Shown here: positions 9,583 to 22,824 of the stretch, in pieces
How the letters are laid out: the number at the start of each line of letters is the position of its first letter
Position numbering within the stretch: position 1 is the first letter of the stretch
Assembly: GCA_016927815.1 (NCBI GenBank)
Contig: JAFGLY010000113.1
Coordinates: forward strand, 1 to 39,954
Origin: Deltaproteobacteria bacterium
GTDB taxonomy: Bacteria; Myxococcota_A; UBA796; JAFGLY01
Length of the DNA: 39,954 bases
Direction: 5' to 3'
Notes under the pieces: model-generated
Seen by the model: the letters and a program-made list of their open reading frames with translations, nothing else
What the model was told of the DNA's origin: nothing
Databases searched by the model: none
Position numbers and translations under genes: made by a program

Positions 9583-12201
9583 ATGCCACGCCCACCGTCG
9601 CCCACCACCGCCGGTGAGGCACGCGAGGCCTGGTTCCTCGCCGGTTCCTCCGACGAGCAGGCAGAGGCGTTGGAGGCGCTGGGCCGCCTCGGAGGACGGG
9701 GGGACCTCCCGGAGGCCCGCGAGGCCGTGGCCACGCTCGTGGAGCTGTCCCACGCGGCGGTGCACCCCAGGGAACGGGTGCCCGTGCTCCGCGCGCTCGG
9801 CCGCTGCACGGACCAGGCCTTCGCCGTTCCGTCCCTGGTCTCGCTGCTGGACGACCCGGATCCGGACGTGGTGGAGGCCTCGCTGGATGCCGTGGGGCGC
9901 ATCGGGTCTCCCTTCGGCGGCGCGTGGGTGGCACGATGGCTCGACCGGTCGCGCCGGGAACCACCCCCCGAGCGCGTGCTGGGCACGGCCCTCCTGGCAC
10001 TCGCCCGCACCGGTCACCCCTCCACGGCCGAACGGGTCCGCCACGCCTGGGACCGCGGACTCGTGGACGCCACGACCGCGCATCTCGCGATGGCGGAGGG
10101 GGTACTCGCCCACCTGTGGGACGAGGCCAAAGCCCACCTCCGGGATGCGACCGCCGCGCCCGCGGCCGCCTTGCACCTCGCCGTGACGCGCCACCCGGAC
10201 CTGCCCACGCTGCTCGATCCCCTCCTGACGGGGCCGGACCCGTCTCTCGCACTGCTCGCCCATGCCCTGCTGGAAAGCCTGCGGCCGAAGGCGCGCGACC
10301 AGCTCCTGGAGTCGGTGGCCGAGGCCCACCCCGCGCGACGCCGGCGGCTCGCACGCGGCCTGCGCGCCTGGCCCGAGGCCGAGGTCCTGGAGGCTTGGCG
10401 CGCCGCGTGCGGTCTGGACGACGACATCGTGCTGCTCGCGGTCGCCATGGACGCCGGCATTCCCGTCCTGCAGGACGAGGCCCTCGCGTACGTCGTCGAA
10501 CGGGATCCCGACGCCGTGCGCGAGGCTCTGCGCCGGGTCCATACGCCGACTGCCGCCCTGATCGGCCACCTTCCCGCGTGGATGGCCCATCCCGACGAGG
10601 GCGTGGCCACCGCTGCCGTTCGCGTCCACTCGAACCTGCTCGGCCCCGATCGGATCGATCAACTGGAGGGGCTCGCCGCGTCGCCCCGCACCGCGCTCAG
10701 GGTGGAGTGGATCCGCGTCTGGCAGAACGGCTTTATGGCCCACAGGGACGCCGCGGGCCGCGTGCCACTGCCGCACGGGGACCGGGTCCGTCTCGTATCC
10801 GGCCTCCGGGCGTTCATGGCTGTGGATCCGAGTCCCGAGGTCCGTCGGATGGCCATCTACTGCGCGGGCAACCTGGGTCTGTCCGAGCTGGGGGACGACG
10901 TCGCTCGAGTGCTCCATCGAAGTGTGGACGCCCTCGATCGGCGGGCGGCCGCGATCGCGATCGCCCAGATGCCCGCCGCCCGCCACCTTGGCTTGCTCGC
11001 GGATCTGCTGGCACGAGACGTGGACGTGCGCCTGTCGCGCCGTCTCGTCCTCGCGACGATCCGATGCCTGGACGGTGCCGAGGTGCCCCCCGGGCTCGCG
11101 GACACCGTGGCCGATCGTCTCGTCGATGCCGACCCGGAGTCCCGACCGGATCTCCTCGACCTCCTGGGCCGTGCGGCCGGTCCGGCAGCGCTCGATCGAC
11201 TCCGAGAGGCCACGCGCTCGGGTGTGCACCGCCAGGCCTGCGTGGCGATCAGCGCGCTTGGCCGTCTCGGGTTGGACCGCGCGCTCGACGTCCTCCTCCC
11301 CGCCTCGGCACACCCGGATCCCGAGCGGCGCCTGCGTGCCGTAGAGGCGTTGGGTCGCGTGCCCGGCACCGTGGCGACGGACCGCCTGGCGTGCGTGCTC
11401 GCCGACCCCTGCGAACCCAGGGACATCCGCCGGGCCGCCCTGGCGGCGCTCGGGGCGCGGCAGCAGGCGCCTACCGGCGTTCGCGTCGATCCCGAAGACC
11501 CCCTCGCCGGTCCCATCTTCGCGCTCCTGCGCGATCTTGCGGATCGATCGCTCTCGGCGGCGGACCTGGATCGACGGCTTGCCCGGGCCGTGCCCGCCCT
11601 CGATCCGGACGCCCTGGAGCGGGCGCACCCGGCCGCGCTCCAGTCTTTGCGAACGGCGGAGTACCTCCATGCCGCCGTGGATCTGCCGCCCGGACTCGAC
11701 GCCGCTCCCCCGGTGCTCTTCTGGGTGAAGGGTCTGGAGGTATGGCTCAACGGCGTACTCGCCCCGCGTCTCGCAAGCCTGGCGAGCCGGGAGCTCAAGG
11801 CTGCGCTGCGCGCGCTCGACGAGCGGTGGGGCACGCTGAAGCCGCACCTGGCCCCCCGCTGGGACGACGCACGCCTGCCGGGCAACCGGGGCGACCTCTA
11901 CCATGCGCTGGTCCACGACACGGTCTCCTGTGCGCCCCACGGGTTCGGCCGCGCCCAGCTGGGCCTGCGCGCGCTCGCCGCCGTGCTCCTCGCCTGCGTG
12001 GACCCTCCCGTCGCGTGTGGGATCGCGTGCTGGTCGAGCCCCCTGGAACGGTCCGCGGTGGAGGATCTGGCCAACGGCCTCGCGTGCCTGGCCAACCAGC
12101 GCAATCCCCTCACCCACCGCCGCGTCGGTCGAGCCGAGGACAACGAGCCGGTGCGCGAGCTGGCACTCGCCTGCGCCGGCGCGATCGCTCGGATGTCGTG
12201 A
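9583..12201 (+). CDS. HEAT-repeat protein with possible HEPN-like C-terminal domain
   Basis: An 872-residue, probably cytoplasmic protein without signal peptide or membrane segment. Most of residues 20-620 is a run of helical HEAT-like repeats (for example PSLVSLLDDPDPDVVEASLDAVGRIG, split here as LLDDPDPDVVEASLDAVGR), suited to protein or nucleic acid binding. Residues about 700-872 form a separate all-helical region ending with ACLANQRNPLTH: Arg840 and His845 make the RX4H pattern typical of HEPN domains, many of which are RNases. This assignment is tentative. An alternative is a binding-only domain. GGAGGAGGG at 9566-9574 places the start at ATG 9583. The Dam-type methylase gene follows 39 bases later. 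Confidence 0.72.
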   Translation: MPRPPSPTTAGEAREAWFLAGSSDEQAEALEALGRLGGRGDLPEAREAVATLVELSHAAVHPRERVPVLRALGRCTDQAFAVPSLVSLLDDPDPDVVEASLDAVGRIGSPFGGAWVARWLDRSRREPPPERVLGTALLALARTGHPSTAERVRHAWDRGLVDATTAHLAMAEGVLAHLWDEAKAHLRDATAAPAAALHLAVTRHPDLPTLLDPLLTGPDPSLALLAHALLESLRPKARDQLLESVAEAHPARRRRLARGLRAWPEAEVLEAWRAACGLDDDIVLLAVAMDAGIPVLQDEALAYVVERDPDAVREALRRVHTPTAALIGHLPAWMAHPDEGVATAAVRVHSNLLGPDRIDQLEGLAASPRTALRVEWIRVWQNGFMAHRDAAGRVPLPHGDRVRLVSGLRAFMAVDPSPEVRRMAIYCAGNLGLSELGDDVARVLHRSVDALDRRAAAIAIAQMPAARHLGLLADLLARDVDVRLSRRLVLATIRCLDGAEVPPGLADTVADRLVDADPESRPDLLDLLGRAAGPAALDRLREATRSGVHRQACVAISALGRLGLDRALDVLLPASAHPDPERRLRAVEALGRVPGTVATDRLACVLADPCEPRDIRRAALAALGARQQAPTGVRVDPEDPLAGPIFALLRDLADRSLSAADLDRRLARAVPALDPDALERAHPAALQSLRTAEYLHAAVDLPPGLDAAPPVLFWVKGLEVWLNGVLAPRLASLASRELKAALRALDERWGTLKPHLAPRWDDARLPGNRGDLYHALVHDTVSCAPHGFGRAQLGLRALAAVLLACVDPPVACGIACWSSPLERSAVEDLANGLACLANQRNPLTHRRVGRAEDNEPVRELALACAGAIARMS

Positions 12202-12240
12202 GGACGAGAGGGGCAGCTCGCGTCGGGTTAATCGCCCCCG

Positions 12241-13080
12241 ATGACGCTTCCCCCCTCCGGTCCCTTCCTCAAGTGGGCGGGTGGCAAGCGCAAGGTGGTG
12301 TCGGCCTTGCTGCCCCACCTCCCGCCGTCGTTCCGAACCTACCATGAGCCCTTCGTGGGGGGCGGGGCACTCTTCTTCGCACTCGCGGCCCCTCGGCTCC
12401 GACCGTTCCAGCACGCGATCCTCTCGGACGCCAACCTCCGGCTCGTGCGCACCTGGCAGGCCGTCCGCGACGACGTGGAGAGCGTGATCGCGCGCCTCGA
12501 GGTCCATGCCTCCAGCCACTCGCGGGACCACTTCCTCGCGGTGCGCAAGTCCGCCCCGGATGGGTCGCCCGATCCCGCCGATGTGGCCGCGTGGCTCATC
12601 TACCTCAACAAAACGGCCTTTAACGGTCTTTACCGCGTCAACAGGCGAGGGGTCTTCAACGTCCCCTTCGGTCGCTACGCGAACCCCACGATCTGCAATT
12701 CGGGCCTGCTGCAGGCGGTGAGCCGGACGCTGGACGGCGTGGAGGTGCGCCACGCCCCGTTCGAGGCCACGCTGGATCTGGCCGAGGCCGGGGACGTGGT
12801 GTACTTCGACCCACCGTACGTGCCCCGCTCGGCCACCTCGTCCTTCACCTCCTACACGGAGGGTTGCTTCGGCCCCGAGGACCAGGTGCGGCTGCGCGAC
12901 GTGGCGCTCGCACTCGCCGATCGGGGGGTGCGCGTGGTGCTCTCCAACCACGACACCCCCGGGGTCCGCGACCTCTACCGTCCGCCCTTCTCGTTGTTTC
13001 GGGTAGAGGTGGCGCGGTTCATCAACAGCCAGGGCGATCGCCGGGGGACGGTGCCCGAGCTCGTCATCGTGGCGGGCTGA
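12241..13080 (+). CDS. Dam-family DNA adenine N6-methyltransferase
   Basis: A 279-residue DNA adenine methyltransferase of the Dam/DpnM (alpha) group, which transfers a methyl group from SAM to adenine N6. Motif X is FLKWAGGKRK (Lys11-Lys16 region), motif I is PFVGGGALFF (about residues 37-46), and the catalytic motif IV is DPPY at residues 190-193. YLNKTAFNGLYRVNRRGVFNVP, quoted here only in part as NKTAFNGLYRVN, is the conserved target-recognition region of the group. GATC is the likely site by family, but this is not shown. No restriction endonuclease gene is adjacent, so it is an orphan methylase. Composition resembles its neighbours. Its stop overlaps the convergent oxidoreductase gene by 17 bases. 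Confidence 0.9.
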   Translation: MTLPPSGPFLKWAGGKRKVVSALLPHLPPSFRTYHEPFVGGGALFFALAAPRLRPFQHAILSDANLRLVRTWQAVRDDVESVIARLEVHASSHSRDHFLAVRKSAPDGSPDPADVAAWLIYLNKTAFNGLYRVNRRGVFNVPFGRYANPTICNSGLLQAVSRTLDGVEVRHAPFEATLDLAEAGDVVYFDPPYVPRSATSSFTSYTEGCFGPEDQVRLRDVALALADRGVRVVLSNHDTPGVRDLYRPPFSLFRVEVARFINSQGDRRGTVPELVIVAG

Positions 13081-14767: not shown

Positions 14768-15232
14768 TCAGCCCCTGCCGGCCAGGCGCTCGAGGCAGGC
14801 GCTCACCTGGCCGGGCGTCGCGTTGTCGGCAAGGAAGTCCACGGGTGCGTGGAGCCGCTCCAGGTGGGCCCAACGCCGGGGCTGGGCGGAGAAGTCGTGG
14901 GAGAACACCGCTGGCAGGCGACAGCCGTCCGCCCGGAGGGCGGCCAGTACGAAAGCGCCCTGGTTCTCCTCCAGGAATGTCCGAGCCCGGGCCCGGTCTC
15001 CCGAGAACCGGCCGGCCATGGCGTCCAGGTCGCCGAGCAGCGCCTCGGCCGGGACGCGGTCGAAGCGCATGTCGAGCACGACCACCTCGAACCCCTCGCG
15101 CCAGCGAGCGAGGGCCTCGGACCCGCTGCCCGCGCGGGTGAACACGAACGGTCCGGCGAGGAACCGGCCGAGCGTACGCGTGTACTCCTCGCCGTCCTCG
15201 ACCACCAGCACCCGGATGGGATCTCGTGTCAC
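14768..15232 (-). CDS. Stand-alone atypical receiver domain protein
   Basis: A 154-residue single-domain response regulator. The N-terminus RVLVVEDGEE supplies the acidic pair (Glu12, Asp13), and Asp54 in VVVLDMRFD is the phosphorylation site. After Asp54 there is an unusual insertion before the next helix, and the conserved lysine of receivers is missing (VDFLADNAT where a K-P would be expected). The same LDxxFD...P start of the insertion is seen in the sigma-54 activator two genes upstream, so the two receivers are related. GTG 15232 overlaps the kinase stop (GTGA). Likely the output or phosphate sink of the TPR-kinase. An alternative is a receiver that no longer accepts phosphate normally. 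Confidence 0.75.
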   Translation of the reverse strand: MTRDPIRVLVVEDGEEYTRTLGRFLAGPFVFTRAGSGSEALARWREGFEVVVLDMRFDRVPAEALLGDLDAMAGRFSGDRARARTFLEENQGAFVLAALRADGCRLPAVFSHDFSAQPRRWAHLERLHAPVDFLADNATPGQVSACLERLAGRG

Positions 15233-17925
15233 GAGGCCTCCTCCTCCGCACGGGGAAACCGGACCACGACCGCCTTGGCCCAGCCCGGCTCGGGCTCGAC
15301 GTGGACCACCCCCCGGTTGCGGGCGATCCGGTCGGCTGCGAGGCCCAGGCCCCGGTCGATGCCCCTCCCGCTCAGGATGGCGTCCGCGAGAGGGCTGGGG
15401 GCGCTGTCCCGGAACCTCAGGGCCAGGACCTCGTGCCCGGTCACGGGGTCCACCTCGAGGCCCATCGCCACGCCGACCCTGCGCGCCTCGGGGGGGCACT
15501 CCTCCACCACGGCGCCGATGGCGTTCCGGATCAGGTTCGCGGCGATCTCCTCGAAGTCTCGGGGAAAGACGCGCACGGGTACGGCCTCCTCGCCCCCCTC
15601 GACCTCGACGGCCGGGGCGTCCACGAGGCCCGGCTCGGCGGCCACGCGCCGGCCCACCGCCTGCAGGAGATCGGCATCCACCTCCAACACGCTCACACGT
15701 CGCAGCAGCCGTCCGAGGGCGGCGTACCCGTCCTCGTTGAGCACCCGAGACACCTCGCGGAGCGTGCGGGCGAGTCCCTGGACCCGCGCCGGGTCCGGAC
15801 GCTCCAGCGCCCCGCGGAGCGCCCCGAGCCGCGTCATGGCACGGTGCATGGGCCCGATCACCGGATCTCGATGGCGGAGGGCGAGCCGCACGCGGTGCCG
15901 CCGGCCCACGGCCTCGAGGTCGGCGAGGTACGTGTCGAACCGTTGCTGGACGCCCGGCTCCTCTGCCTCTCCGAAGAGCGCACCGACGGCCCAGGAAGCA
16001 GCCGTGAGGTCTCCGCGCTCGAGGCGTTCGGCGATGGAGGGGAGCACGGTGGTGCGGTGCTTCAGCACCTCGTGCCGGATGCCTGCCAGGATCCCGGCCA
16101 CGTCGTGGTAGGCGTCCGGGATCCGCTCGATCAGGTCGACCAGGGTGGCCCCGGTGCGACGGCGCAGCCACCAGGCGAGCGGACCGACGAGCAGGAGCGC
16201 CAGGCCCGCGGCGAACGCGACGCGCCGACCCCACAGGGCCCGGTCCACGCGCTCAGCGAGCGCCAGCGCCGGTTCTCGAGCCAGCCCGCCTGGAGAGCGG
16301 GCGAAGAAGGCGTCGAGCAGCGCACGCGCCTCTCTGGGTCTGCCCTCCTCCGCCGCCACGGCAGCCAGGAGGTACCAGGCCTCCGAGGCGCCGGCCTCCG
16401 CGCCACGACGGAGCAGTGCGTCGGCCTCTTCCGGGTGCCCCAGGGCCCGCTCGAGCTCTCCTGCGGCCAGGAGGATGCGGGGGTCGTCCGGATCCTCGGC
16501 CAGGCACCGCCGGTAGCGCGCCAGGGCATCCTGGGGCCGGCCGGCCTCCACGTCGAGCGCCGCCAGCAGCAGCAGCGCGTCGGTGTAGGCCGGGGCCAAC
16601 GCGAGGGCCTCCTCGGCTTCGGCCCGGGCGGCCCCGGCGTCTCCCCGCTGGCGGTAGACCCGCGCCACGCGGTAGTGCCATCGGGCTTCCTCCGGGAGTT
16701 CGGCCCCTGGACGACTGTCGGGCAGGATCACGGGCGCGGGGCTCCTCCGCTCCAGGTCGGCCAAGGCCTGCCGGGCCTCCTCGGCGTCCGAGGGCGCCGG
16801 AGCGCCGTCGAGGCAGGCCCGCCAGGCCTCCCGCGCAGCCGCGGGTTCCCCGCTGTGCTGAAGGATGCGGGCCAGGCGGCACTGGATCGCGGTCCAGCCG
16901 GGTCTCAAGCCGAGCGCCGTGCGCAGCTCTCGAATCGCCTCGTCGTTCCTGCGGCCACCGTACCGGTCCGCGAGCAGCAGGCCGAGATCCGCGTGCCAGG
17001 TCGGTTCCTCGGGGGCGAGCAGGACGGCGGCAGCGAGGGATCGCTCCGCCTCGGCCACGCGGCCGGCCGCGATCTGGACCTCTCCCAGCGAGGCCCAGGC
17101 CTCGGCCGATCGGGGGGCCCGCGCAACCAGATCCCGCAACCGCTCCGTAGCCTCGTCGAGGTGTCCCGAGGCGGCGAGCCCACGCGCCTCCTCCATCCCC
17201 TGCCTGAGGCCGCTCCCCAGAGGCTCCCCTCCTCCGAGGGCAAGGCGACTCGCCTCGTTCTCCACTGAGATCCGGTCGGCGAGCGTCTGAAGGCGCGCCC
17301 CTCCCTCGAGCGCGGGCCACCGCTCGAGGACCCGCGCGACCAGGCGCGCGGCGGCATCCCGGTCCCCGGCATCCTTGAGCCCGCTGGCCACCCGGAGCAC
17401 GCTGTCCCCGTCGGGCTCGCCGTCGAGGAGATCGAGGTAGCGCTCCAGCGCGTGCTCGGCCCCCACCGGGTCGGTCGCGGCCAGCAGGCAGGCTTCGCGC
17501 CGATAGGGCTCGGCCGATCCGAGGTCGAGGGTCTGGAGGCGACGCCAGAGCGCCAGGGCGGTGGCTGGATCCCGCTCCTCGAGGAGGACAGCGCGGGCCC
17601 GCACCACGTCCGGCTCGTTGGGCAAAGCCGCCCAGGCCGCATCGGCTCCGGCGGTGTCGCCCAGAGCCGCCAGCGCGCGGCCGAGCCCCAGAACCGCAGG
17701 CACGAGCGCCGGATCCCGGAGGAGGGCCAGCCTCCAGCCGGCCGCGGCCTTCTCCCACTGCCCGGCCTGCTCGGCCCGCCAGGCCTCCGTCACGACCGCC
17801 TTCAACGCCGGCGAGGTCCCCTCCAACTCGAGCGGCAGCGTCCCCGCCACCGCGAGATCGGGCGGTTGGGCCTGGCGCGCCCCCACGGCCGACGCCAGCG
17901 CGAGGAGCAACCCGATCCGGTTCAC
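15229..17925 (-). CDS. Membrane TPR-repeat histidine kinase
   Basis: An 898-residue sensor. A short hydrophobic N-terminus (IGLLLALASAVGA) may export the first ~565 residues, which are TPR repeats (for instance AEEALALAPAYTDALLLLAALDVE, seen as ALALAPAYTDALLLLAAL). One membrane helix lies at about residues 569-587 (VAFAAGLALLLVGPLAWWL). The cytoplasmic part has a possible phosphoacceptor His618 in GIRHEVLKH and a C-terminal HATPase: N-box ANLIRNAIGA, a degenerate G1 box (RDSAPS instead of DxGxG) and a G2 box GRGIDRGLGLA. Start is GTG 17925, overlapping the sigma-54 activator stop. The TPR region would sense a protein in the periplasm. The ligand is unknown. Confidence 0.78.
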   Translation of the reverse strand: MNRIGLLLALASAVGARQAQPPDLAVAGTLPLELEGTSPALKAVVTEAWRAEQAGQWEKAAAGWRLALLRDPALVPAVLGLGRALAALGDTAGADAAWAALPNEPDVVRARAVLLEERDPATALALWRRLQTLDLGSAEPYRREACLLAATDPVGAEHALERYLDLLDGEPDGDSVLRVASGLKDAGDRDAAARLVARVLERWPALEGGARLQTLADRISVENEASRLALGGGEPLGSGLRQGMEEARGLAASGHLDEATERLRDLVARAPRSAEAWASLGEVQIAAGRVAEAERSLAAAVLLAPEEPTWHADLGLLLADRYGGRRNDEAIRELRTALGLRPGWTAIQCRLARILQHSGEPAAAREAWRACLDGAPAPSDAEEARQALADLERRSPAPVILPDSRPGAELPEEARWHYRVARVYRQRGDAGAARAEAEEALALAPAYTDALLLLAALDVEAGRPQDALARYRRCLAEDPDDPRILLAAGELERALGHPEEADALLRRGAEAGASEAWYLLAAVAAEEGRPREARALLDAFFARSPGGLAREPALALAERVDRALWGRRVAFAAGLALLLVGPLAWWLRRRTGATLVDLIERIPDAYHDVAGILAGIRHEVLKHRTTVLPSIAERLERGDLTAASWAVGALFGEAEEPGVQQRFDTYLADLEAVGRRHRVRLALRHRDPVIGPMHRAMTRLGALRGALERPDPARVQGLARTLREVSRVLNEDGYAALGRLLRRVSVLEVDADLLQAVGRRVAAEPGLVDAPAVEVEGGEEAVPVRVFPRDFEEIAANLIRNAIGAVVEECPPEARRVGVAMGLEVDPVTGHEVLALRFRDSAPSPLADAILSGRGIDRGLGLAADRIARNRGVVHVEPEPGWAKAVVVRFPRAEEEAS

Positions 17926-19520
17926 GTGTCCTTCATGTCGCGTACGCGCAGCCCGAGCTGGTTGAACCGAAGCTGCACCTTGCGTCCGTGCGAGGGATCC
18001 CCAAGGAGGATCCGGGCCATGCCGGAGAAGGAACCCTGCTCCTGGCGCCACAAGGCCGCGAAGTACTGGCGCTCGACCTCCACCGAGAGGGCGTTGAGGC
18101 TCTCGTGGGGACGGATGGTCACCTCGTGCCGCCACCCCTCCTGGGAATCCCCTCCGGAGGTGCGGACCGCTCTGAGCAGGTCGCGGACGAGCTTGGGTCG
18201 AACCTGGACCACGTCCGCCCGCTCGCCCGGAGGCACGCCCGCCAGCTCCGCGAGCGTGAACGTGAGGGCATTCTCCACGACCATGGCGAACTCGCGCAGG
18301 TTGCCGGGCCAGGCGTGCTTCCTCATCAGGCGCATGGCCTGGTCCGTGAAGAGGACATGGAGCACTCCGGGCTCCTGCGCGGGCACGCGGCCGCCCGCGA
18401 CGGTGTGCACGCGGCACCGGCCGAAGCCTGCGCGCTCCCGGTAGTCGGCCAGGAGTTCGGCCGGGTAGGAGCCGTCCAACGCCCGTTCGACGCAGAATGC
18501 GAGGAGCCCCGACAGGTCCTCGCCCCGCTCTTTCAAGGGCGGGAGGGCCACCGTGCACGCCGGGTTCAAGCGCATGTAGAGGTCGGGCCGGAACCGGCCC
18601 TTCTCCACGAGCCGGGCGAGATCCTCGTGCGAAGCCACCACGACCTTCACGTCCACCTGTCGCTCGCGGGTGTCCCCGAGCCGGACCAGGAGCCCCTCCT
18701 GCAGGACCGTGAGCAGCATCCGCTGCGCCTCCTCCGGCAGGTTGCCGACCTCGTCGAGGAAGAGCGTGCCGCCGTGCGCCGTCTCGAAGGCCCCCGTGCG
18801 ATCGGCCACCGACCCCGTGTAGGCCCCCTTCACGGACCCGAAGAGGTGCGCAGCCATGAGATCCCGGGGCATGGTGGCCAGGTCCACCGCCACGAAGGCG
18901 CCGGTCCTCAAGGAGCGCGCGTGGACGAAGTGCCGGGCGATGAGCGTCTTCCCGGTCCCCGTGGGCCCCGTGAGGATGATGGGAAGTCGGCCGCGGGAGA
19001 GCACCTCCAGGCGGCTCCGGATCCTCCGCATCCCGAGGGGGCGCCCCCACCAGATCGGCCCGTCCCAGGCCTCGCCGCCCTTGGCTCGGAGGATCCCCTG
19101 GATCTGGGCCTGCAGCGTCCGTGCGTCGAGGCAGTCGTCGTCCAGGAAATACGTGTATTCCTGGGCATCGAGGGCCTCGGCCTCCTGTTCGAGGGGCAGA
19201 TCGTCCCGGCTGGTCATCAGGATCACGGGGAGGTCGGGGGCCCGCTGGCGGAGCCGGGCGAGGATTTCCAGTCCCTGCCGCCGCCGCGCACGCGCCTGCT
19301 CCGCCTCGCCCGCCTCGGGGCCCAACCCGACCAGGTGCTCCACCGGAATGTCGAAGTGGACGTCCAGGAGCACGAGGTCCACGTTCGTCCGCCCGCGCCC
19401 GAGCCGGGACTCGGCCTCGGCCCAGGACCGAGCCGGACCCAGCACGTCGTGCTCCGGCAGGACCCGCCGGCAGAGATCGATGGTGCGGTCGAGGTCGTCG
19501 ATCACGAGGATGCGGGCCAT
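17922..19520 (-). CDS. Sigma-54-dependent response regulator with atypical receiver
   Basis: A 532-residue enhancer-binding protein. The N-terminal receiver has acidic Asp8/Asp9 and phosphoacceptor Asp53, an insertion of about 23 residues after it (starting HFDIPVEHLVGL), and no conserved lysine (YFLDDD at that place). The AAA+ domain has Walker A GPTGTGKT (185-192), a sigma-54 contact loop GAYTGS (232-237) in place of GAFTGA, and Walker B GGTLFLDEV (Asp256, Glu257). The arginine-finger region and WPGNLREF are present. The C-terminal part (SFSGMARILLG, then KVQLRFNQLGLR) looks like a Fis-type helix-turn-helix. ATG 19520 has AGGAGG upstream. It should activate sigma-54 promoters; targets are unknown. 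Confidence 0.88.
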   Translation of the reverse strand: MARILVIDDLDRTIDLCRRVLPEHDVLGPARSWAEAESRLGRGRTNVDLVLLDVHFDIPVEHLVGLGPEAGEAEQARARRRQGLEILARLRQRAPDLPVILMTSRDDLPLEQEAEALDAQEYTYFLDDDCLDARTLQAQIQGILRAKGGEAWDGPIWWGRPLGMRRIRSRLEVLSRGRLPIILTGPTGTGKTLIARHFVHARSLRTGAFVAVDLATMPRDLMAAHLFGSVKGAYTGSVADRTGAFETAHGGTLFLDEVGNLPEEAQRMLLTVLQEGLLVRLGDTRERQVDVKVVVASHEDLARLVEKGRFRPDLYMRLNPACTVALPPLKERGEDLSGLLAFCVERALDGSYPAELLADYRERAGFGRCRVHTVAGGRVPAQEPGVLHVLFTDQAMRLMRKHAWPGNLREFAMVVENALTFTLAELAGVPPGERADVVQVRPKLVRDLLRAVRTSGGDSQEGWRHEVTIRPHESLNALSVEVERQYFAALWRQEQGSFSGMARILLGDPSHGRKVQLRFNQLGLRVRDMKDT

Positions 19521-19978
19521 CGGGCCTCCTTGAGGCGTCGGGCGGATGTCGCCGCTTCCCTCACCCGCTGGTCGAGGCGCTTCAAGGCATGCGCCACCTC
19601 CATCGCCGCCGCTGCCCCCTTGGCGAGGCGATCCGCGGGGGCGTGGTCCAGATCGGGCAGGAGCGCCCGCAGCCCCTCCATGGCGGCGTCCACGGCGGCC
19701 ACGTCCGGATCGTCCGCGAGCCCCGCGAGGGACGGCCTCAACCGATCCCACAGCGCCGGAGCGGACTCCAGGCGATCTCCCTGGCGACGCGTCGCCCCCA
19801 CGTCCGCCCGAAGGGCGGCCCGTACCGCCTCCGGATCCGGATCCGGAGGCAGCCAGCGGAGCTCCATCGCCACGTACTTGCCGAGATCGTGCCGGACGCG
19901 GGCGACCGCCTCCACCAGGGACGGGTCCGGAGGTGTGCAAGGCCGCGTCTTGCGGGATCGTGCGGGTTCTTTTATCAT
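19502..19978 (-). CDS. Small helical protein with HDLGKY motif, possible phosphotransfer protein
   Basis: A 158-residue cytoplasmic protein that I do not recognise as a named family. It has no signal peptide or membrane helix, and it reads as mostly alpha-helical with many Ala, Leu and Arg. His30 in ARVRHDLGKYVAME resembles the H-box of histidine kinases or a phosphotransfer helix, and is similar in kind to RHEVLKH of the TPR-kinase in the same operon. It is the first gene of this operon, and its last 19 bases overlap the start of the sigma-54 activator. ATG 19978 has GGAGGAG upstream. A role as an intermediate in the phosphorelay is an inference from position and motif only. Confidence 0.6.
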   Translation of the reverse strand: MIKEPARSRKTRPCTPPDPSLVEAVARVRHDLGKYVAMELRWLPPDPDPEAVRAALRADVGATRRQGDRLESAPALWDRLRPSLAGLADDPDVAAVDAAMEGLRALLPDLDHAPADRLAKGAAAAMEVAHALKRLDQRVREAATSARRLKEARWPASS

Positions 19979-20058: not shown

Positions 20059-22824
20059 ATGGCATCATCGGCCGATTCCTCTTCGACGCGTCCCCCGCTG
20101 ACCCCGGTGCCGCGCCCGGCGACCAACGAGCTGAAGCGTCGCTACGAGGAACTCCTGGCCGAGCTGAAGCTGGAGCCCGGCGTGCGGGTCAGCCTCTCGT
20201 GGATGTTCGAGGAGGCCCTCCGCTCCGATCCGGCCCTCTCCGTCCCCTCCCACGCTGCCGGAGACAGCACCCAGCCGGCTCTGCGCGCCAGCGATTCCGC
20301 CATCTCGGCCCACTCGCCCATCGAGGCGAGCGACGACGTGGAGCCCCCTCCTCCCGCGGCCCACTTCCCCCAGCTGTCCCTGCCGGGCCGATACTGGTAC
20401 CGCGGGTTCATCGGCGCCGGATCCATGGGCGAGGTCCACCGGGTCTACGACCGGGCCCTCAGGCGTCCACTGGCCATGAAGGTCTTGAGACCCGATCTGC
20501 CCAGCCCCGACCTCGCGGTCTTCCGGTTCATCGAGGAGGCCCAGGTCACCGCCCAGCTGGAGCACCCGGGCATCGTACCGGTCCACGACATCGGCCTCCT
20601 GCCCGACGGCCGCTGGTTCTTCACCGCGATGGAGGCCCGGGGACGGCGCCTCACCTCGGCGATCCGCGAGGTCCACGAGGTGCGCCTCCAGCACGGCACC
20701 TTCGCCGAGACGCCGGGGGGCTGGAGCTTCCGCCGCCTGGTCAGCGCGTTCCGGACGGTCTGCGAGGCCGTGGCCTACTCCCATGCCCGAGGGGTCGTGC
20801 ATCGCGACCTCAAGCCCGACAACATCCTCGTGGGCGAGTACGGCGAGGTGCTCGTCCTCGACTGGGGCCTCGCCCGCCCCATGCGTGCCGGACCCGACCG
20901 CAAGCTGCGCGCCGAGCCGGTGCGGTCCGATCGGCAGGAGGAGGAGGCCTTCGCGACCCGAGCCGGGATCGTGGCCGGCACACCGGCCTTCATGCCCCCC
21001 GAGCAGGCCCGGGGCGAGGTGGATCGGCTCGGGCCCTGGTCCGACGTGTACGCCCTGGGAGGGGTGCTGTACGAGGTGATCTTCGGCAGCCACCCCTACG
21101 AGGGCATGACAGCCCGCGACGTCCTGGAGCGGGTCAAGCGGGGGCCGCCTCCGTTCCCGCCCGCGCCCTGGGCCCCGATGCCCATGCTCCAGGCCTGTCG
21201 ACGGGCGCTGCGCTTCAACCCCGAGGACCGGTTCCCCGATGCAGGGGCCCTGGGCGCCGAGATCCACGCGTGGCTCGAGGGCGCGCTGCAGCGCGAGAAG
21301 GCCCAGGAGGCCGTCCAACAGGTGCGCGGTCGGATCCCCAACCTCTCCCGTCGGTACCTCGAGGCGCTGCGCGTCCGGGAACGGGCCCGGCGGGCGGTGT
21401 CCCGCCTGGCGCCGAGCACCGCCCTCTCCGAGAAGGAGCGTTCGTGGGAAGCCGAGGAGCGCGCCGAGCGGGAGCTGGAGTCCGTGGAGGACGCCTTCCA
21501 GGACGTGGTGCAGCAACTCCAGGCCGCCCTCCTGCAGTGCCCCGACCTCCTCGAGGGCCGCGCCGCCCTGGCCGATCTCTACCGCAACCGTCACGACGCC
21601 GCGGCGGCCTTCGGACAGGCCGAGAGGGCCCGACAGTTCGAGCGCCTCCTCCGGGAGTACGACATCGGCACCCACGCGGCCTTCCTGGCGGGCCTGGGTC
21701 GGATGTCGCTGACCTCGGATCCTCCGGCCACGCGCATCGTGGTGGAACGGTTCGAGATCAAGGGCCGCCGCCTCAGTCCCCAACCGGTGCAGGTGATGGA
21801 CCGGGTGCCTGCCGGCGACTTCCAGCTCCCCGCCGGTTCCTACCTCCTCGAGATGGAGGCGCCGGGCCGGGTGAACGTCCGGTACCCCATCCACCTCCCA
21901 CGGGAGGGCACCTGGACGGCCGCGCCTCCGGGCCAGACGGAGCCCCGCCCCGTCTTCCTCCCCCCCGAGAACCTCGTTCCGGACGCCGCTGTCTACGTGC
22001 CCGAGGGGTGGGCCATCTTCGGCGGCGACGCCGAGGCTCCGGGCAGCCCCCCCCGACGCAGGCTCTGGATGTACGGCTTCACCATCGCACGGTTCCCGGT
22101 GACCCACCAGGAGTACCTCGCCTTCCTGGACGCCCTGGCCGCCTCGGACCGGTTGGACGAGGCCGCGGACCGGGTCCCCCGCCTCGCGGGCCCCCCCGAC
22201 AGCGACCCGCCGGCGATCTACCGGGTCGGGCCCGACAACCGGTTCCGACCGGTGGACTCCACTCCGTTCGGCCCCATCCGGCCCGGAGCCCCGGTCACGC
22301 TCGTCCGCTGGTCCGACGCGGCGGCGTACTGCCTCTGGCTCCGGGCGCGCACGGGGCTGCCCTGGCGCCTCGTCACCGAGGCCGAGCGCGAGAAGGCCGC
22401 ACGGGGTGTGGACGGCCGCTGCTTCCCCTGGGGCGACCACGCGGATCCGTCCTTTGCGTGCAGCCGCGACTCCATGCTCGACCGGCCCGGTCCTCCGTCG
22501 CTGGACGCCTTTCCGGTCGACAACAGTCCCTACGGAGTCCACGGCCTTGCCGGGGGCTCCGCGGACTGGTGCATGGACACCCTGCAGGCGGACGGCCCGG
22601 CCCACCAGGGGGCCATGGTGTCGACTCCGGCCCCCCTGACGCCCGAGGATGCGGAAGCCGGCGTACAGGCGACGATCCGGGCGGTACGCGGCGGGTCCTT
22701 CGACGCACCGGACCGCGTGGGGCGGGCGGCGGCCCGTGCGGGGTTCCCGGCCACGATGCGCCGTCCGGGTCTCGGCTTCCGCCTGGCTCTCTCGCTCGAA
22801 GACCTGCTCTCCTCCCGAGGGTGA
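20059..22824 (+). CDS. Ser/Thr protein kinase fused to a formylglycine-generating-enzyme-like domain
   Basis: A 921-residue soluble protein in three parts. A Hanks-type kinase (about residues 110-430) has a glycine loop GAGSMGEV, catalytic Lys141 (AMKVL), HRDLKPDN with Asp250, DWGLA in place of DFG (Asp268) and a PPEQARG end of the activation segment. A helical linker follows, with a PEGA-like beta segment (VPAGDFQLPAGSYLLEMEAPG). The C-terminal part (from about 640) is a SUMF1/FGE-type fold: FTIARFPVTHQEYLAFL, WRLVTEAEREKAARG, SPYGVHGLAGGSADWCMD, VRGGSF. No membrane helix separates the parts. The start is unsure: ATG 20017 is an alternative, but 20059 leaves more promoter space from the divergent gene. 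Substrates are unknown. Confidence 0.85.
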   Translation: MASSADSSSTRPPLTPVPRPATNELKRRYEELLAELKLEPGVRVSLSWMFEEALRSDPALSVPSHAAGDSTQPALRASDSAISAHSPIEASDDVEPPPPAAHFPQLSLPGRYWYRGFIGAGSMGEVHRVYDRALRRPLAMKVLRPDLPSPDLAVFRFIEEAQVTAQLEHPGIVPVHDIGLLPDGRWFFTAMEARGRRLTSAIREVHEVRLQHGTFAETPGGWSFRRLVSAFRTVCEAVAYSHARGVVHRDLKPDNILVGEYGEVLVLDWGLARPMRAGPDRKLRAEPVRSDRQEEEAFATRAGIVAGTPAFMPPEQARGEVDRLGPWSDVYALGGVLYEVIFGSHPYEGMTARDVLERVKRGPPPFPPAPWAPMPMLQACRRALRFNPEDRFPDAGALGAEIHAWLEGALQREKAQEAVQQVRGRIPNLSRRYLEALRVRERARRAVSRLAPSTALSEKERSWEAEERAERELESVEDAFQDVVQQLQAALLQCPDLLEGRAALADLYRNRHDAAAAFGQAERARQFERLLREYDIGTHAAFLAGLGRMSLTSDPPATRIVVERFEIKGRRLSPQPVQVMDRVPAGDFQLPAGSYLLEMEAPGRVNVRYPIHLPREGTWTAAPPGQTEPRPVFLPPENLVPDAAVYVPEGWAIFGGDAEAPGSPPRRRLWMYGFTIARFPVTHQEYLAFLDALAASDRLDEAADRVPRLAGPPDSDPPAIYRVGPDNRFRPVDSTPFGPIRPGAPVTLVRWSDAAAYCLWLRARTGLPWRLVTEAEREKAARGVDGRCFPWGDHADPSFACSRDSMLDRPGPPSLDAFPVDNSPYGVHGLAGGSADWCMDTLQADGPAHQGAMVSTPAPLTPEDAEAGVQATIRAVRGGSFDAPDRVGRAAARAGFPATMRRPGLGFRLALSLEDLLSSRG

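Follow-up and report, generated by a model that had tools for sequence, protein, structure and literature searches.

Four co-encoded proteins of a Myxococcota genome appear to form a His-Asp-His-Asp relay with two lysine-less receivers and a sigma-54 output

The window analyzed here is a stretch of 39,954 nucleotides, contig JAFGLY010000113.1 of a Deltaproteobacteria bacterium (GTDB phylum Myxococcota_A; assembly GCA_016927815.1), whose genome is 3.99 Mb in size and 97% complete. On the minus strand, at positions 14768 to 19978, it carries an operon of four genes that encode, in order, a small protein with the motif HDLGKY, a sigma-54 activator, a membrane kinase with tetratricopeptide repeats (TPR), and a lone receiver. 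We consider it probable, judging from the sequences, that these four proteins constitute a His-Asp-His-Asp relay that drives sigma-54 transcription, and that the relay was built by doubling a two-component pair. The genes lay where the original prediction had placed them and were coupled, as it had said, by overlaps, which measured 19, 4, and 4 nucleotides.

Both receivers kept the acidic pair and the phospho-Asp, carried an insertion, and lacked the conserved Lys, in agreement with what had been predicted. The lone receiver (positions 14768 to 15232, minus strand; 154 amino acids, GTG start) has E12, D13, and D54, and the receiver domain that forms approximately residues 1 to 145 of the activator (positions 19077 to 19520, minus strand) has D8, D9, D53, and T103. 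In hhalign alignments with eight of the genome's ordinary receivers, the canonical Lys fell on D136 of the lone receiver, and there is no Lys in residues 118 to 139 of the activator receiver. Homologues were collected from the window and from loci numbered L039 to L163 and L184 to L203, using profile thresholds of E < 1e-20 for the lone receiver, E < 1e-100 for the activator, E < 1e-30 for the kinase, and E < 1e-5 for the small protein; these thresholds leave out divergent orphan receivers of two families, f33 and f35. All counts are of unique sequences, as judged from the final 120 residues of each frame (from the domain in the case of the small protein), and two of 84 kinases, being too short, were excluded. 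None of the 91 lone receivers had a Lys in the nine residues from 131 to 139 and none of the 65 activator receivers had one in the 13 residues from 119 to 131, so the Lys is not restored by a shift of the alignment. The residue at its place in the lone receivers was D in 77, S in 6, G in 4, A in 3, and E in 1. As a control, 28/28 other receivers of the genome had, close to the C terminus, a K that precedes P or A; this was a set drawn from the 32 listed by a Pfam search, with four left out.

The insertion lies in the β3-α3 loop and amounts to 30 residues in the lone receiver and 22 in the activator, where it stands between FD and QG. The hhalign alignments opened a 30-column gap before Q91-G92 of the lone receiver and 22 gap columns in the activator receiver, and the Gly found at D+8 in ordinary receivers was met at D+38 and D+30, respectively. 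In canonical receivers, this turn contains a Pro at D+4 and a Gly at D+8 (PMC12632262; papers are cited here by PubMed Central [PMC] number). Position D+4 in the present receivers is mostly Asp, and the Gly is displaced to behind the insertion. The predicted insertion after LDxxFD is thus real and common to both proteins, with the correction that it takes the place of the gamma turn. Residues E12, D13, D54, F57, R59, G67, Q91, and G92 were invariant in 91/91 lone receivers, and D8, D9, D53, F56, L63, Q82, and G83 in 65/65 activator receivers, all of which also had T or S at the β4 Ser/Thr position. An AlphaFold model of the lone receiver (predicted local distance difference test score [pLDDT], 97.2) had a receiver fold that matched the solved receiver 4qpj_C with a Z score of 14.9 and a root mean square deviation of 2.0 Å over 118 aligned residues, many other receivers being tied with it; the activator receiver was assigned to the receiver domain by its profile alone. 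A pseudo-receiver is defined by the absence of one of five residues, D, D, D, T, and K (PMC12632262), and by their sequences both proteins fall under that definition through the missing Lys. A four-Cys insert of the type C..PCWxC..RxGC is present around β2 in ten of the 65 activator receivers, each of them from a distant family (L184 to L192 and L197); it may be a metal or redox site that joins the relay.

The two receivers also resembled each other more closely than they resembled ordinary receivers, the hhalign E value between them being 2.5e-21, versus 2.7e-12 and 1.9e-16 with ordinary receivers. A tree of 57 rows (14 lone, 15 activator, and 28 ordinary receivers) from which the insertion had been cut out placed the lone and activator receivers as sister groups with support of 94/92, each group standing alone at 99/99 and 98/96, respectively. 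The claim that they are a matched pair from one source was supported by both results. That both have the insertion and both have lost the Lys likewise points to a common origin, and we regard the two as likely sister paralogues, with moderate support from these sequences.

The second His donor is proposed to be the small protein (positions 19502 to 19978, minus strand; 158 amino acids), read here as a stand-alone histidine phosphotransferase with H30 as candidate phospho-acceptor and K34 at H+4. Residues H30, D31, and T63 were invariant in 50 aligned rows, and the motif H-D-x-x-K/R was present in 64/65 homologues, the 65th being cut by a contig end. A reading of HDLGKY as an HD phosphohydrolase was rejected, as a single HD is conserved with no second His/Asp pattern. 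When 65 small proteins were aligned by hhalign with 82 kinase regions (residues 590 to 765), the probability was 68.4 and the score 33.2 over 97 columns, with RHDLGKY aligned to RHEVLKH and the H-boxes in register. The scores of 199 column shuffles averaged 11.0 and did not exceed 18.3, and reversal of one side gave a probability of 0.1; control scores of the small protein were 19.1 with lone receivers, 9.5 with activator receivers, 16.8 with AAA+ domains, and 12.9 with TPR. Masking the H-box left a score of 26.3 (probability 23.0), still above every shuffle. An earlier comparison with narrower alignments had been weak (probability 9.9, P = 0.003), and the rise to 68.4 came with broader alignments confined to the phosphotransfer region. 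Because its score with the kinase stands above shuffles and controls, the small protein looks like a stripped, distant relative of the kinase phosphotransfer domain. A model of it (pLDDT, 94.7) consisted of five helices, for which Foldseek returned only helical bundles as look-alikes (FAT domains, talin, and designed bundles); the lack of a specific match is uninformative. The Pfam family Hpt (PF01627) had no match in the whole genome, and the same search was positive in 8/14 control genomes.

The first donor is the membrane kinase (positions 15229 to 17925, minus strand; 898 amino acids, GTG start), which has a hydrophobic N terminus, a TPR region, one strong transmembrane helix (residues 569 to 587) followed by Arg residues, a phosphotransfer region, and a GHKL ATPase. 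Its profile matched structures of FixL, NtrB, and CpxA. HATPase_c was found at E ≤ 0.1 in 23/28 kinase homologues, the window kinase being without such a match, and no known Pfam DHp family of the HisKA type was among the matches of the 28 at that threshold. Residues H618, H623, N797, R800, N801, T829, D840, G859, and K884 were invariant in 82/82 full homologues. The predicted TPR-bearing membrane kinase with a degenerate G1 box is indeed present, and its G1 box reads DSAPSP, in which the Asp is kept in 82/82 homologues and the Gly is lost; among these sequences, degeneracy of the box is a trait of the whole kinase family. The TPR region, however, is not constant. The window and Nannocystis have it and the kinases of some lineages do not; since locus L185 has about 200 residues before the catalytic part and L188 has its extra part at the C terminus, the sensor input is, by these sequences, exchangeable while the core stays.

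The H-box of the kinase, RHEVLKH, has the form H-E-x-x-K rather than the H-E/D-x-x-T/N of HisKA kinases, in which T/N is required only for phosphatase activity (PMC3510030). Position H+4 was K in 80 and R in 2 of the 82 kinases, and K in 61 and R in 3 of the 64 complete small proteins. Ordinary histidine phosphotransferases carry a Lys at H+3, which gives a precedent for a Lys close to the His. The four phospho-sites, in a transmitter (T), a first receiver (R1), a phosphotransferase (P), and a second receiver (R2), are encoded together and are invariant, and for a part list of T-R1-P-R2 with every site invariant the most economical chain is H618 to D54 to H30 to D53. We infer the phosphotransfers, their order, and the direction of membrane insertion as follows. 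A signal at the extracytoplasmic TPR part of the kinase would lead to autophosphorylation of H618; the phosphoryl group would pass to D54 of the lone receiver, from there to H30 of the small protein, and finally to D53 of the activator; the AAA+ domain of the latter would then open sigma-54 promoters. The insertion and the partner's H+4 Lys would compensate for the missing receiver Lys. The relay probably arose by doubling a two-component pair, the two receivers deriving from one and the small protein from the kinase phosphotransfer domain. A complete relay, as originally predicted, is supported, on the level of sequence, by conservation and paralogy of its parts.

The system was found well beyond the window. 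The lone receiver had a strong match (E < 1e-30) in 46/58 genomes, its own included, and loci with the system include Nannocystis, Plesiocystis pacifica, and Enhygromyxa salina. Gene order was read in 80 of 133 relatives found, and 51 of the 80 loci had all four parts in the order small protein, activator, kinase, lone receiver. The other 29 lacked a partner within the stretch available, contigs of metagenome-assembled genomes (MAGs) being fragmentary: 17 had the kinase and lone receiver, 11 the lone receiver only, and 1 missed just the small protein. Two further orders occurred among 20 additional stretches from distant families, namely, kinase, lone receiver, small protein, activator in four (L184, L185, L190, and L191) and small protein, activator, lone receiver, kinase in four (L187, L188, L189, and L197). 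When nine stretches with only the lone receiver were traced, the small protein and the kinase were each found elsewhere in 8/9 genomes, so in one family the operon is split. Among 63 genomes of the order, 47 had both the lone receiver and small protein, 4 the lone receiver only, 3 the small protein only, and 9 neither (Fisher P = 5e-6, uncorrected for shared ancestry; tallied by hand from searches that examined 377 and 356 genomes), and the mismatched genomes were mostly less than 90% complete. No fusions between the four parts were seen among the open frames examined. The suggestion of a subfamily is supported by this recurrence of the four parts across the Myxococcota in three gene orders. 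That they would always occur together with a TPR kinase and small protein is nearly so, apart from the family with split genes and the lineages whose kinase has no TPR. Public MAG records titled Klebsiella pneumoniae (L087, L098, L105, and L111) also carry the system, and their titles look wrong.

Several observations weigh against the relay as proposed. Nine genomes of families f33 and f35 have a divergent, orphan lone-like receiver (E of 6e-14 to 5e-11) with no kinase or small protein detected by profiles that, run alongside, found both in three positive genomes; the association of the receivers with a kinase and small protein is therefore not strict. The small protein has no Pfam family, 0/50 of its members matched Hpt or HisKA, and Foldseek with its model gave no convincing fold (best E, 0.36; the plant histidine phosphotransferase 1wn0, E of 2.9). 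In that model, H30 is predicted to lie close to the end of helix 1. Its homology to the kinase is remote (probability 68%), with lower probabilities, from 17.8 to 34.3, in four subsets, one of which left the H-box unaligned. The β4 Ser was found in just 67/91 lone receivers, the remainder having A, V, C, or I. The bootstrap of the receiver tree is unsettled, at 94/92 for the sister groups, and for that reason a common origin is likely and not proven. Lastly, receivers without Lys, being pseudo-receivers by definition, may pass phosphate poorly. As a separate observation, the orphan type occurs in L193 to L195, and the two orphans examined (L193 and L194) retain the phospho-Asp, the insertion, and QG.

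The coincidence of an H+4 Lys in the donors with Lys-less receivers makes a bolder form of the proposal, a charge-swapped and closed relay, of interest, although we regard it as doubtful: the lost receiver Lys would be supplied in trans by the donors' H+4 Lys or Arg, phosphochemistry would occur only in docked cognate pairs, and the circuit would stem from one doubled pair. If true, such docking would shield the relay from the cell's remaining kinases and receivers, and phosphatase activity of the T/N type would be removed. A strict salt-bridge pair is not supported, since the most distant lineages retain the donor Lys but no longer have an Asp where the receiver Lys would be.

An unlikely alternative to a relay is a branched two-component system, in which the kinase would phosphorylate both receivers directly, with the lone receiver as a phosphate sink and the small protein as a phosphatase or scaffold. 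Precedents exist in NmpT of Myxococcus xanthus, which consists of receivers only and is thought to be a sink (PMC11841059), and in small receiver phosphatases with short acid-amide motifs, such as CheZ with DxxxQ and CheX with ExxN (PMC3510030). However, the conserved His of the small protein sits in a donor-like H-box related to the kinase donor domain, a phosphatase would have no need of a His kept in 64/65 sequences, and a sink need not persist in the majority of genomes with the other parts. The invariance of catalytic residues bears on another reading, an improbable one, in which the receivers would stay unphosphorylated and the kinase-like and small proteins would regulate the activator by binding. 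The absence of Lys from all receivers, which makes them count as pseudo-receivers (PMC12632262), and the degenerate G1 box speak for it, but all 91 lone and 65 activator receivers keep the acidic pair and phospho-Asp, all 82 kinases keep H, N, D, and K, and phosphorylation is not necessarily lost when the receiver K is substituted (PMC12632262). Such invariance is most simply explained by selection for phosphochemistry. A set of genes brought together by chance, or an ordinary two-component locus in decay, might be suggested by how barely standard models detect the parts; this reading is refuted by conservation of the residues and gene set across the phylum and can be given practically no weight.

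The activator (positions 17922 to 19520, minus strand; 532 amino acids) ends in a C-terminal tail that is presumably DNA binding. The loop of its AAA+ domain reads GAYTGS in the window rather than GAFTGA, and GAYTGA or GAYTGS was present in 43/65 homologues, with exact GAFTGA in none of that tally. The genome contains a gene for RpoN (sigma-54). A weighted -24/-12 consensus scan found 0/81 upstream stretches with a shuffle P ≤ 0.05, and because no stretch reached that value, autoregulation of the operon via sigma-54 is not supported.

Pfam recovered the AAA+ domain of the activator (PF00158, E of 9.5e-51), half of its receiver, and the TPR repeats; half of the lone receiver was matched, below threshold, and there was no match for the kinase ATPase domain or the small protein. 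The genome-wide Pfam receiver search omits the lone receiver, and the HATPase_c search omits the kinase.

A gene on the plus strand, 80 bp from the operon (positions 20059 to 22824), encodes a divergent Ser/Thr kinase with a formylglycine-generating enzyme (FGE)-sulfatase-like domain and is a possible neighbor or target of the operon. Protein kinase genes lie near the operon in some, not most, related loci (L084, L099, L113, L130, L141, L155, and L162). Conserved neighbors were lineage specific only, several clusters there being antisense shadow frames, and so no target is named. A recurrent neighbor of the small gene in 13 loci (including L094, L100, L102, L107, L110, L115, L116, L118, and L122) has the motifs WDLDKTYL and SGSP and appears, by eye, phosphatase-like. 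The Nannocystaceae have a gene of about 180 amino acids, with a weak helix-turn-helix match, just before the small gene (L137, 2216 to 2755; L145, 2183 to 2722; L155, 2055 to 2594), and in the distant gene order a divergently oriented gene for an extra ordinary receiver stands beside the kinase (L185, 9990 to 10439; L190, approximately 11982 to 12407).

Phosphorelays are known as a kind. The Spo0 relay of Bacillus (KinA-Spo0F-Spo0B-Spo0A) likewise has a separate kinase, a lone receiver, a stand-alone phosphotransferase, and an output regulator. Unlike Spo0, the present system has a sigma-54 AAA+ output, Lys-less receivers with an insertion, all genes in one operon, and a small protein without the C-terminal domain of Spo0B. 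LuxU-LuxO of Vibrio, in which LuxU is an ordinary histidine phosphotransferase, performs multistep signaling onto an NtrC-like sigma-54 activator, and its receivers, as well as those of NmpRSTU of M. xanthus, are not known to depart from the canonical form. NmpRSTU also signals in multiple steps onto such an activator, using a hybrid kinase, NmpS (PMC11841059). ChpT of the CckA-ChpT-CtrA relay, a phosphotransferase that resembles a kinase DHp domain and falls in none of the known HPt classes (PMC3433190), offers a likeness to the small protein. It differs in retaining a degenerate ATPase-like domain and in working from a hybrid kinase; in the window system the donor domain has no such companion, and a protein of its own serves as first receiver. 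The excerpt of PMC3018481, which also mentions the T-R-P-R relay of B. subtilis, describes RedCDEF of M. xanthus as a four-component relay of T1-R1R2-T2-R3 layout in which phosphate passes from a receiver to a kinase-type transmitter, and there it mentions neither a sigma-54 output nor Lys loss. Set against pseudo-receivers in general, the phospho-Asp and acidic pair are here invariant, and a conserved receiver pair goes with two related His donors. The relay seems, from its sequences, to work like Spo0 and CckA-ChpT but to be assembled from its own two protein kinds; what is new is the sister receivers and the small protein related to the kinase phosphotransfer domain. For the words searched, no description of the four-part system was found in the open-license PMC literature.

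Split tetrad relays are rare, with one of five phosphotransfer genes in tetrads lying in a kinase-RR-RR-PP locus (PMC3018481), and yet a fully split four-gene relay in one locus, rare in surveys, is here widespread in a phylum and largely missed by standard models. It offers a natural test of Lys-less receiver function, in two paralogues at once, and a worked example of a relay that seemingly came about when each half of a two-component system was duplicated, its gene orders and sensors differing by lineage. For Nannocystis, Plesiocystis, and Enhygromyxa, of which named strains exist, it represents an apparently unstudied input into sigma-54 transcription.

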